DNA from: Actinomycetes bacterium
GTDB lineage: Bacteria > Actinomycetota > Acidimicrobiia > Acidimicrobiales > JAKAVM01
Direction: 5' to 3'
Assembly: GCA_021817065.1 (NCBI GenBank)
Contig: JAKAWH010000017.1
Span: 1-37,980 of the forward strand
Length of the DNA: 37,980 nt
Of this stretch, positions 15,065-25,873 are shown piece by piece (the stretch's first letter is position 1; each line of letters opens with the position of its first letter). The position numbers and the translations under genes were made by a program. Below the pieces are notes generated by a model. It worked only from the letters and a program-made list of their open reading frames with translations, was not told the DNA's origin and searched no databases.

Positions 15065-17905
<2,841 letters not shown>

Positions 17906-18424: not shown

Positions 18425-18447
18425 GATCGCCCGGCAGCCGGGCGATC
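18425..18447. other. Strong hairpin between the structured RNA and hpf
   Basis: GATCGCCCGG-CAG-CCGGGCGATC, perfect 10-bp stem with a 3-nt loop; no U-tract on the minus strand. Confidence 0.7.
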
Positions 18448-18465: not shown

Positions 18466-18777
18466 CACATAAGGGTCGCGTACGGCTGACCTGGTCTTTG
18501 CCCCCACACTCGCCTGCTGCGAGGCTGCCCGGCCCGGTTCCCGGCGGCAAGGTCGACCAGATGTCCCGACAGGGTGGAGCACCTGGCCTCGCATAGCCCA
18601 GCGGTACCGTGGGTGGCCGGCTTCCCCTCTTCGCGCCCGGCCTCCCCGGCGGGGAGGAACGGACGGCAGGGCTTACTTCTAAACCGCGCCATGCTCAGCA
18701 ACGAATGTTGCCTTATGTGGGTCGTTTCGCCCGCGGCTGGCATCGACTTGCAACCACAGACCCGTACGCGACCCATC
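18466..18777 (-). ncRNA. Candidate raiA-motif structured noncoding RNA upstream of hpf/raiA
   Basis: Perfect 13-bp closing helix GGGTCGCGTACGG (18774-18762, minus) with CCGTACGCGACCC (18485-18473); additional 9-bp pairing CACATAAGG/CCTTATGTG (18719-18711 with 18474-18466); internal GC hairpins; -10-like TAGAAT (18789-18784) placing the TSS near 18777; immediately upstream of raiA. Confidence 0.6.
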
Positions 18778-18783
18778 ACGAGA

Positions 18784-18812
18784 ATTCTACGCCGGCCGGA
18801 CGAAAAAGTCTC
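18784..18812 (-). promoter_or_regulatory. Promoter candidate for the structured RNA
   Basis: GAGACT - 17 nt - TAGAAT on the minus strand; a TSS 7 nt downstream would lie 3 nt before the closing helix. Confidence 0.45.
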
Positions 18813-18890: not shown

Positions 18891-20222
<1,332 letters not shown>

Positions 20223-21309: not shown

Positions 21310-21545
21310 GAGGAAGTCCAGTTCTCCTTGATTCCCCCTTCTTCCGCCTTGGCGATCAAGCGCTCGTGCTCCGTCGCGTCGACCTGGCGCGCCTCCTCGA
21401 TCAGCATGACCGGGATGCCATCGCGGATCTCGTAGGCGCGCTTGAGGCGCGGATTGTAGAGAACCGACTCGTCCTCGAAGTACAGGAGCGGGCCCTTGTC
21501 CTCAGGACAGGCCAGAATCTCCAGCAACATCGGGTCCAGGGTCAT
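21306..21545 (-). CDS. Trm112-family protein
   Basis: MTLDPMLLEILACPEDKGPLLYFEDESVLYNPRLKRAYEIRDGIPVMLIEEARQVD. Confidence 0.9.
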   Translation of the reverse strand: MTLDPMLLEILACPEDKGPLLYFEDESVLYNPRLKRAYEIRDGIPVMLIEEARQVDATEHERLIAKAEEGGIKENWTSS

Positions 21546-24500
21546 TTCCTACCTCCTCGTGGCTTGAGCCCGAACAACCCTCCGGAACGGGAGGGAGCGC
21601 CGGCTTCGTGTTTGACAATGCCGAGCACCTCTTCGACGTGCTCATCGCACTCCTCGGTTGTCGGCGCCTCCAGGTTCAACCGGAGTAACGGCTCGGTATT
21701 GGAAGGGCGGAGGTTGAACCACCACGAGTTCATATCGACAGTCAGGCCGTCGAGATGATCCATGGTTACCCCCGCTCGCCCCCGGAAGCTCTCTTCCACC
21801 GCTTCGATCACCGCGGCTGGATCGGCAACTTCGCTGTTGATCTCGCCGGAGGCGGCATACCGCTCGAATGGCTTGCAGAGCTCCGAGAGCGGTTTGCCCG
21901 ATTCGGCCAGCATCTCCAGAACCACCAGCGCTGCGACCAAGCCGGAATCGGCTCGGTAGTTCTCGCGGAAGTAGTAGTGGCCGGAGTGCTCGCCCCCGAA
22001 CACAGCGCCCGTCTCCGCCATGATTGCCTTGATAAAAGAATGGCCGACCCGAGTCCGAATGCCGGTACCGCCATTCTCCGAGATCACTTCGCGCACGGTC
22101 TTGGAGCAGATGGCATTGTAGAGAACGGTCGCTCCAGGATGCTTGTCGAGCATGGACTTGGCGACCATCGCTGTCGTGAGGGAGCCTGATACCGGATTCC
22201 CTCTTTCATCGACCAGGAACACCCGGTCGGCATCGCCGTCGAATGCAAGACCGACGTCCGCACCGGTCTCCACCACCCGGTCGATCAAGGCGGTCAGGTT
22301 CTCGGGCTGAATGGGGTCGGCGGGATGGTTGGGAAAAGTACCGTCCAGCTCGGGGAAGAGTATCTCCAGCTCGGCACGAATGCCGGAGAAGACGGCCGGG
22401 ACCACCAGCCCTCCCATTCCGTTGGCCGTATCGGCGACGATGGTGAGTCCCTCCAGCGCCGACACGTCGACGAACGAGCGAACATGGTCGGCGAACGCAT
22501 CGAGCATGTTCATCGAAACCAGCGACCCGGATGGTGGCGTATGCACTCCCACCGCACTGTCGGCACCGCCCACGACCGGGCTCGGGCTCGGCCCGTTCGG
22601 ACCCAGCAGGCTCTCGGCGATCTTCTCGATCTCGGCCAATCCGGTTTCGACACCGATAGGGCGCGCCCCGGAGAGGCAGAACTTGATCCCGTTATATCGA
22701 GCCGGATTGTGCGACGCGGTGAAGACGGCGGCAGGAGCATCGAGCTTGCCGGAGGCGAAATAGGCCATGTCGGTGGAGGCCAGTCCCAGGTCGACCACGT
22801 CGACGCCCTGGGAACGCACACCCGCCATGAATGCACCGGCCAGCTCGACCCCGGATTCGCGCATGTCTCTGGCAACGAGGACCCGGTTGGAGGCACCGAG
22901 ATTGCCCGAGACTCTCAGGAAGAGAGCGAAACCGACTCCGATAGCGCGGCAGGTGGGAAAGTCGAGCTGATCGGGCACAGTGCCCCGAACGTCGTATGCC
23001 TTGAAGATCGCGCCGAGCGCGCCGGGTTGCTCATTCGCCTTGCCCATGCCGGGATCGAGCTTACCGGGGACCACGTCGGCGGAGTCCATCCCTGTCCCCC
23101 ATCCAGGTGGCGGGGAGGAGACGCCGGGAACGATACCGGTCGCCGCCCGGCCTGCCGGCATAGCAATTGGCCTGCGCCGTGCCATCGCCACTACCGCGGC
23201 GATACCGGCCAGGGTAAGCAGCCATCCGAGAAGGTCGATCGGGGTGTAGCCGTAATACACCACCACATGGTGAGAGGTCGGCACCACCACCATCTCGTTC
23301 GGCGTGGCCCGGTAGGGCCCGGTTGCGCCGGACGCTTTCCAGTTGGGGAAATAGGAGGTCCGGACTTCTACGGGAACGCCGATCCGGTCCACGTCGAAAC
23401 TCATCGAATGGGTGCTCACCACCAGATGGCTGACATGGACCGGCGGAAGGGGTACCGGGCTAGGAGTGCCGAGAGTGGTCCCGGCCCCCGCAATGGGACC
23501 CGAGTTGCTCGACGAGGCCGATTGCGGCGCGGTCACCACCTTCACCCGCTGCCAGGAGGCGGGGCCGTCGGCAGTGAGAACTACGTTCCACTTCGCCTGG
23601 TCGGTGTACCAGGCCATCGATGCGTCGAGCCACGCGTTGCCGGTCGCTCCCGCACCTGGTCCGGTCATCACTGCCGGTTGATCGGCCAGGGGGGTCACCG
23701 TCGAGGATCCCTTCACCCGGAAGATCGACCAGGTGATCGGATTCCCGGTAATCGACTGGGAACCCGTCCACGGTCCGCTGGTCGCGACCAACTGCAGGTT
23801 CGGATTGATCTTGGCCTGGCTCACCACGTCGTAGGTGTAGGCCATCAAATATCGTACTCCGAGTTGCTGGAGGTGCCCCACCGCCAGGGGCACATCCATG
23901 CCGGCATAGGGGATGTTGCGCATCGCCTCAGATGGGCTGTCGGAGAGCTCCGCCTGGTTGATGAAGTGGTACGGGGTGGTCGACGACGACTCGAAGAGAA
24001 GGCCCTCCATCGAATCGATGCAACCGTTGGTCCAGTAGGGAAGGAGCATGAGCGCCATGGGAGTGCCGAAATTATTCTCCGACGGATCGTACTCCCACAT
24101 CGCCGGTCCGCATCCATCGGAGGCGCCTACGTTGCTCATGGTTGTCATCAACCCGTGGTACTCGGGCCAGGTGGCTCGCGACTGGTATCCGCTGTAGTTC
24201 CAATCCACCCAGGCGGGAACGAAGCTCTTCTGTGCCACCGGTACGGTGCCCGGGAGCCAGGTGACGATCCGAAGGGGTAGAGCTACGTAGTAGAGCGCGA
24301 GAAGTGTTACGAAGATCGCTCCCGCCAGCGCACCGGGATGCCAGGTCTTGGGGGGATAGGCAAGTGGAGTCTCCGGAGCCGGCGGTGAATCGGCCTGGTC
24401 ACCGGTCACTGCTCCGGGATGGGATAGCTCGGATCCGGGCACCACGCCGGGTGGGGGCCTCAGGTCCGCACCGATCCACCAGTTCGCTGCCAGGCGCCCG

Positions 24501-25873
24501 AGCGTCGACCAGCGCCACAACCAGCCGGCCCCCGCTGCCGCCTCGCCGATGGCGACACCACCGAGGAGGTACACGCACAGGAACCAGAACGGCAGCGCCC
24601 GGGCGTTGTAGACCGCGCTGGCCGGCGCAAGGACAAAAGCGCCCGCCGATGCTGCACCCATCACCGCCAGGACCACCCCGAGGCGGTGCGGGCAGCCACT
24701 TCCCCACCCGCCCTTCCTCACCGATATCGCCCAGCGCACGACGGAGATCACTGCCCCCACTGCTGCAAGGCCGACGAACCACCCGAAAGCGATGACCTCC
24801 GAGTGGGGGGTGGTGGTGCACTGGGAGGTGGCGTTGTAGGGAAAGAGACACTTGGCGTAGTCGGTTACCGGGCTCCATCCCATGTCGGTGGAGTATCCGA
24901 TCCGCCACTCGAAGGGGAGCAGCCACACCGCAGTGAGTGCCGATCCGGTCAGTCCTGCACTCAGTCCCCACCACAGCCTTCGGCGCCCCATCTGGAGAAG
25001 CAGGAGCAGGACAGCACAGGCCGCGATGAACATCGCCGGGAGCACGTGGCACATCGCCACCACCGCGAAGAGCACTGCTGCCAGTGCCCGGTGCCGACCG
25101 GTGTCCAGGCCGCGTGCCACCAGGCCGAGCAGGATCAACCCCACCGAGAGGCTGATGGCGAACGAGTACTCCCCCGCCATGGTCGAGGCGATGTTGCCCC
25201 CGTCGATGGTGAAGGACCGCTCGAAGAGCAATGGCAGGGTTGCCGCGGCCATAGCGACCGGCACCGGCGGCTTCCACCCGGCGAGCTTTGCCATCGCCCA
25301 TGCCGAAATCGGCATGATCACCAACCCCGAGGCGGTTACCAGTTTGAACGCGACCCCATAGGGGATCACGAAGCTCGCCAAGGCTATGAACAAGCTGGGC
25401 AGGGGGAAGTAGAAGGTGAAGATGGGGAAGCCTGCGTACCAGCCCGGACTCCATCCGGTGATCCGACCTTGGCCCAACAGGGAATGGCGCATGAACCAGG
25501 GCAGGTAGACATGCGCCCCCATGTCGCCTCCGTCGGTCAGGGTGCCCGAGAAGAGGACGTCGGGGTGGAGCTGGACGACCACGAACACCGTCATCGCCGC
25601 CAGGGCGAATGCAGTCACCCACCCCGAAGCGGTGGGCCACCGAAGCGGGGGAAACCGGTATGCCGGCCACCGTCGAGAGACGGTGGTCTTCCCGGTACCC
25701 TCATCGATCCCGGTTCCACCCGAGTCCGGTTGCGAGCGCGGCGGTGCCACCTGGCTGGTCATCGTGGTGACGATTGTTTCATGCGGAGAGGACCAGCGGG
25801 GCTCAACGACCCGAGGTAACTCCGATTCCCCGGACTCGGGTTGCTCAGGAGAGATCATCCCCTCCTCCTCCAT
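21542..25873 (-). CDS. Fusion: N-terminal multi-TM GT-C-like (PTPS-related membrane) protein + C-terminal phosphomannomutase/phosphoglucomutase
   Basis: N-term WVTAFALAAMTVFVVVQLHPDVLFSGTLTDGGDMGAHVYLPWFMRHSLL...; C-term GAIFKAYDVRGTVPDQLD...FTASHNPARYNGIKFC...LAFDGDADRVFLVDERG...GGEHSGHYYFREN. Uninterrupted 1443-aa frame. Confidence 0.88.
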   Translation of the reverse strand: MEEEGMISPEQPESGESELPRVVEPRWSSPHETIVTTMTSQVAPPRSQPDSGGTGIDEGTGKTTVSRRWPAYRFPPLRWPTASGWVTAFALAAMTVFVVVQLHPDVLFSGTLTDGGDMGAHVYLPWFMRHSLLGQGRITGWSPGWYAGFPIFTFYFPLPSLFIALASFVIPYGVAFKLVTASGLVIMPISAWAMAKLAGWKPPVPVAMAAATLPLLFERSFTIDGGNIASTMAGEYSFAISLSVGLILLGLVARGLDTGRHRALAAVLFAVVAMCHVLPAMFIAACAVLLLLLQMGRRRLWWGLSAGLTGSALTAVWLLPFEWRIGYSTDMGWSPVTDYAKCLFPYNATSQCTTTPHSEVIAFGWFVGLAAVGAVISVVRWAISVRKGGWGSGCPHRLGVVLAVMGAASAGAFVLAPASAVYNARALPFWFLCVYLLGGVAIGEAAAGAGWLWRWSTLGRLAANWWIGADLRPPPGVVPGSELSHPGAVTGDQADSPPAPETPLAYPPKTWHPGALAGAIFVTLLALYYVALPLRIVTWLPGTVPVAQKSFVPAWVDWNYSGYQSRATWPEYHGLMTTMSNVGASDGCGPAMWEYDPSENNFGTPMALMLLPYWTNGCIDSMEGLLFESSSTTPYHFINQAELSDSPSEAMRNIPYAGMDVPLAVGHLQQLGVRYLMAYTYDVVSQAKINPNLQLVATSGPWTGSQSITGNPITWSIFRVKGSSTVTPLADQPAVMTGPGAGATGNAWLDASMAWYTDQAKWNVVLTADGPASWQRVKVVTAPQSASSSNSGPIAGAGTTLGTPSPVPLPPVHVSHLVVSTHSMSFDVDRIGVPVEVRTSYFPNWKASGATGPYRATPNEMVVVPTSHHVVVYYGYTPIDLLGWLLTLAGIAAVVAMARRRPIAMPAGRAATGIVPGVSSPPPGWGTGMDSADVVPGKLDPGMGKANEQPGALGAIFKAYDVRGTVPDQLDFPTCRAIGVGFALFLRVSGNLGASNRVLVARDMRESGVELAGAFMAGVRSQGVDVVDLGLASTDMAYFASGKLDAPAAVFTASHNPARYNGIKFCLSGARPIGVETGLAEIEKIAESLLGPNGPSPSPVVGGADSAVGVHTPPSGSLVSMNMLDAFADHVRSFVDVSALEGLTIVADTANGMGGLVVPAVFSGIRAELEILFPELDGTFPNHPADPIQPENLTALIDRVVETGADVGLAFDGDADRVFLVDERGNPVSGSLTTAMVAKSMLDKHPGATVLYNAICSKTVREVISENGGTGIRTRVGHSFIKAIMAETGAVFGGEHSGHYYFRENYRADSGLVAALVVLEMLAESGKPLSELCKPFERYAASGEINSEVADPAAVIEAVEESFRGRAGVTMDHLDGLTVDMNSWWFNLRPSNTEPLLRLNLEAPTTEECDEHVEEVLGIVKHEAGAPSRSGGLFGLKPRGGRK

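Follow-up and report, generated by a model that had tools for sequence, protein, structure and literature searches.

The raiA-motif RNA, also designated ModT (Rfam RF03072), is a known family of noncoding RNAs that was named after a neighbouring gene, and the name hints at ribosome hibernation. In C. difficile, ModT is reported to be an abundant, stable and trans-acting RNA, and read-through to yield a longer isoform (PMC11706538). The cryo-EM structure of the raiA RNA contains a pseudoknot, pk-1, in which seven pairs join the P3 loop to the pk-loop, and the RNA has no expression platform (PMC11751092). According to a figure cited in PMC11706538, a raiA/hpf gene lies downstream of 66% of raiA RNAs, so the two are not always adjacent.

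The window analysed here, meaning the whole stretch of 37,980 nt, comes from a member of the Actinomycetota that probably belongs to the class Acidimicrobiia (below, the class). A cmscan (Infernal) search of the window returned a single Rfam match, to RF03072, on the minus strand. The match spans model positions 1-209 without truncation and scores 135.5 bits (E = 1.8e-33), well over the gathering score of 101.3 bits. A raiA-motif (ModT) noncoding RNA is encoded upstream of hpf, as the initial annotation had proposed on reading the sequence, and the covariance-model search suggested there found the family on the expected strand. A 104-aa open reading frame (18779-18465) runs across the RNA and was rejected as a protein gene, as it has no Pfam match; the earlier impression that no convincing protein is encoded here holds. 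RF03072 RNAs were found in 24 of 59 relatives from the order and in 45 of 395 genomes of the class, every one above the cut-off; the class-wide search used strict filters, and only presences were taken from it. A literature text search, which covered a minority of subscription papers and not the PNAS 2024 raiA paper, returned no single paper with both the raiA motif and Acidimicrob-.

The gene order in the window is ahcY, the RNA, hpf and secA, followed by a gene that resembles prfB, for release factor 2, in its GGQ motif; the features of the locus are collected in Table 1. The HPF of the window genome is short and divergent, and PF16321, the C-terminal dimerisation domain, has no match in this genome; relatives have a long HPF, a short one or none. 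The idea that the RNA compensates for the dimerisation domain missing from a short HPF was rejected: PF16321 is present in about 10 of the 24 relatives that carry the RNA, and HPF is lacking altogether in others. The perfect hairpin between the RNA and hpf is absent from the 3' flanks of two relatives of the same family (L005 and L010), and it was dismissed as a genomic repeat because it is present in a single copy in the genome. Elsewhere in the window, in a 1443-aa frame at 21542-25873 (minus strand), a membrane protein that matches PTPS_related weakly is continuous with a complete phosphomannomutase/phosphoglucomutase; L170 has this arrangement too, and in L168 the mutase is a separate gene.

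Table 1. Coordinates of the raiA RNA, its structural elements and the neighbouring genes in the window.
Feature	Position	Strand	Basis or remark
raiA (ModT) RNA	18477..18770	-	RF03072 positions 1-209, cmscan
-10 element TAGAAT	18784..18789	-	TANNNT conserved in relatives
P1 helix 5' strand, GGGTCGCGTACGG	18762..18774	-	covarying 13-bp helix; Rfam model begins 4 nt inside
P1 helix 3' strand, CCGTACGCGACCC	18473..18485	-	covarying 13-bp helix
P3 loop AGCCGCG, pk-1 5' half	18732..18738	-	pairs with 18688-18682
pk-loop CGCGGTT, pk-1 3' half	18682..18688	-	pairs with 18738-18732
Enlarged variable P7/P8 region	18524..18660 (boundaries approximate)	-	cmscan alignment, 95 nt skipped by the model
Perfect 10-bp hairpin between RNA and hpf	18425..18447	-	T-rich stretch follows on the plus strand only
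hpf/raiA gene, short form, 97 aa	18091..18384 (start ~18384)	-	PF02482 (Ribosomal_S30AE), 39.2 bits
secA, next after hpf	15065..17905	-	Pfam SecA domains
ahcY, upstream of RNA	18891..20210	-	Pfam AdoHcyase

The two strands that close the RNA pair perfectly over 13 bp, as noted initially, and the helix is P1 of the raiA RNA, real beyond chance. Among 58 distinct loci belonging or close to the class, a mean of 10.8 of the 13 positions is paired, against 8.16 +/- 0.23 when the 3' arms are swapped among loci; the highest value in 2000 permutations was 8.95, and the observed value is lowered by a few loci in which the anchoring of P1 was missed. Of the 13 pairs, 12 (pairs 2 to 13) show compensatory changes, for example from G-C to C-G or T-A. 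Because the observed pairing exceeds that of the permutations and compensatory changes accompany it, the P1 helix of this group is genuine and exceeds that of the Rfam model in length.

Judged from the sequence, the known pseudoknot pk-1 is also present in the window RNA, where its two halves pair at all seven positions, one of them by G-U. In 25 distinct pairs of arms, 6.48 of the 7 positions are paired, compared with 5.99 +/- 0.07 on permutation and ~2 when the arms are slid by one. Once the residue numbering of PMC11751092 had been mapped onto the Rfam consensus, the alignment reading placed A28, A44-A46, C181/A182 and G190/G191 (Clostridium numbering), which take part in pk-2 and the other tertiary contacts described in that work, in the window RNA as well. 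At position 43, G replaces A both in the window RNA and in most of the relatives listed. The initial annotation had called the RNA a divergent or little-studied member of its family; its core is not divergent, as every published tertiary-contact residue that was compared is kept except A43, and the window RNA adds one ordinary member to the raiA/ModT family.

Two internal hairpins had been proposed as well. CCTCCCC/GGGGAGG is found at 18657-18651/18647-18641 (minus strand). The letters of CTCGC/GCGAG are likewise in place at 18523-18519/18513-18509 (minus strand), but in the RF03072 alignment the family fold pairs GCAGG (18517-18513) with CCTGC (18670-18666), and because CTCGC/GCGAG competes with this pairing, it is unlikely to be a native hairpin.

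A further 9-bp pairing, between CACATAAGG (18719-18711) and CCTTATGTG (18474-18466), was initially put forward as a pseudoknot or an alternative conformation. As a real alternative fold, it would break the core and switch the RNA. The pairing is perfect in the window genome and involves a highly conserved segment. Its conservation was examined in 149 loci drawn from the class, other Actinomycetota and the Bacillota: the mean length of the longest Watson-Crick run that the CACATAAGG segment makes with the 3' flank is 3.91, against 3.97 with shuffled flanks, a run longer than 7 occurs in the window only, and none of the 148 other loci has a 9-bp counterpart. When the flank of the window RNA is shuffled, a pairing of 9 bp or more with some part of the RNA arises in 11 of 300 cases, and the 9-bp pairing does not form in the minimum-energy folding of the window RNA. 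The A in CACATAA occurs in 13 of the 149 loci and so is not peculiar to the window genome. The letters of the 9-bp pairing are thus real, but the match itself looks like chance; as a family trait the alternative fold is already refuted, the helix having no counterpart in relatives, and that it is a genuine switch in the window RNA is extremely improbable.

Upstream of the RNA, the TAGAAT noted initially lies at a conserved place: in 58 of 59 distinct loci, a TANNNT element begins between -33 and -17 from a conserved GTC, against 4.0 +/- 1.9 loci after shuffling. TANNNT elements cluster at the same place in the remaining loci too, which are mostly from the Bacillota. A consensus scan found no classical -35 element upstream of the RNA. 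The position of the -10 element varies by a few bases, probably in step with how long P1 is at each locus. From this near-fixed element, both in the loci of the class and in the Bacillota-rich remainder, it appears that in both phyla the raiA RNA forms a transcription unit that has a start of its own. In the window, the RNA would be transcribed from its own TAGAAT promoter, with a predicted start at ~18777, at the base of the 13-bp P1.

The initial annotation had the RNA acting together with ribosome hibernation, and hpf is its most regular neighbour. Gene neighbours were mapped in 48 loci of the class, from 25 genomes with hpf and 23 without it, and in all 25 of the former hpf directly follows the RNA, which favours a role in which the RNA cooperates with HPF. 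The hpf-less genomes tell against such a partnership. At least 31 RNA-bearing genomes of the class, from 12 genera and six families, gave no hit to PF02482 or to a class-specific HPF profile (0/31 at E <= 0.1); the profile was built on 19 HPF proteins of the class and recovers the HPF of the window genome, the positive control, at 8.8e-36. Missing contigs cannot explain the absence, since these genomes are 88-100% complete across so many genera and families. A SecA tree requires three or more changes in hpf presence among the genomes that carry the RNA, and two of the changes are forced by well-supported branches. Among the 59 relatives from the order, hpf is present in 19 of 24 with the RNA and in 22 of 35 in which a search with stricter filters, from which the RNA absences too were taken, did not find it; the presence of the RNA and that of hpf are unassociated (Fisher p = 0.25). 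The RNA also accompanies long and short HPF alike. Cooperation with HPF in ribosome hibernation is accordingly very unlikely. Because hpf-less genomes retain the RNA, they argue against HPF as an obligatory partner and provide natural test cases for the function of raiA/ModT; they are compatible with an effect on ribosomes by another route. Neighbours other than raiA were already known for this family, and what is added here is that the RNA is kept in genomes without any detectable hpf.

In the 23 hpf-less loci, the gene that follows the RNA is secA in 13 (at a distance of 40-99 nt), a NarL-type response regulator in five and a convergent response regulator in one (G018), and the RNA lies elsewhere in four. 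Three of these four (G291, G296 and G421) belong to one family: miaA follows the RNA in G296 and G421, where this was confirmed, and in G291 the frame after the RNA resembles miaA. In the fourth, G024, the next long frame carries Big_1 and Flg_new repeats (Pfam). In L037 and L047 the raiA RNA (1501-1750) lies directly upstream of miaA, unlike the usual hpf/secA setting. In ~16 relatives, including L003, L011, L013 (where it is inverted), L014, L043 and L046, a NarL-type response regulator gene separates secA from hpf or from the RNA; it is missing at that place in the window.

These neighbourhoods bear on whether the RNA is a riboswitch-like leader that acts in cis on hpf or on the whole hpf-secA operon, the actual shared target being secA. 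Rfam itself types RF03072 as "Cis-reg; riboswitch", and most loci have the RNA just upstream of a codirectional hpf or secA operon, an arrangement that is compatible with a cis effect too. Little sequence separates the RNA from the first gene, a search there for an intrinsic terminator on the minus strand found none, and in most hpf-less loci it is secA or the response regulator that takes the place of hpf. Against a leader, the RNA also precedes miaA in one family and sits beside a convergent gene in G018, the genes downstream of raiA RNAs vary by phylum (a PTS antiterminator in C. difficile; PMC11706538), and pairing between the RNA core and the 3' flank is not conserved for the one segment tested. 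On this balance, a cis-acting leader is unlikely, though less so than a partnership with HPF.

The RNA is probably free-standing rather than an hpf switch, since relatives keep it after hpf is gone. The reading held with high confidence is that the locus is an RNA gene with its own promoter and a compact fold, whose product would most likely be a stable structured RNA that acts in trans and does not switch hpf. The RNA would adopt the compact fold known in Clostridium, with pk-1 and pk-2, and the downstream hpf and secA would probably be reached by read-through or from promoters of their own. By analogy with the published work on the Bacillota, the present RNA may be expected to be transcribed, to be stable and abundant, and to act in trans.

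Since the RNA is kept beside secA, and elsewhere, in lineages that have lost hpf several times, a housekeeping role in the class, independent of both HPF and sporulation, is suggested with moderate confidence. A sporulation phenotype of the raiA/ModT RNA has been seen in Clostridia. To our knowledge, the class is not known to sporulate, and sporulation is for this reason improbable as the general function of raiA RNAs.

Compared with the described raiA/ModT RNAs (RF03072; C. acetobutylicum cryo-EM structures, PMC11751092 and PMC12286853), the window RNA matches the model over its full length and likewise has raiA/hpf downstream. It shares with them P1, the pk-1 pairing, a GNRA-like turn, A28, A44-A46 and the CAAA and CCAGGTCAG motifs. 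It differs in that P1 reaches four pairs past the Rfam model and in the G for A at position 43, which is common in the class. It is ~300 nt long instead of ~210 nt, mainly because of the enlarged P7/P8 region; variable P5, P7 and P8 are normal in the raiA/ModT family (PMC11706538). HPF/RaiA (PF02482), for its part, is a protein, whose gene is the downstream neighbour here and whose presence in the order is not associated with that of the RNA.
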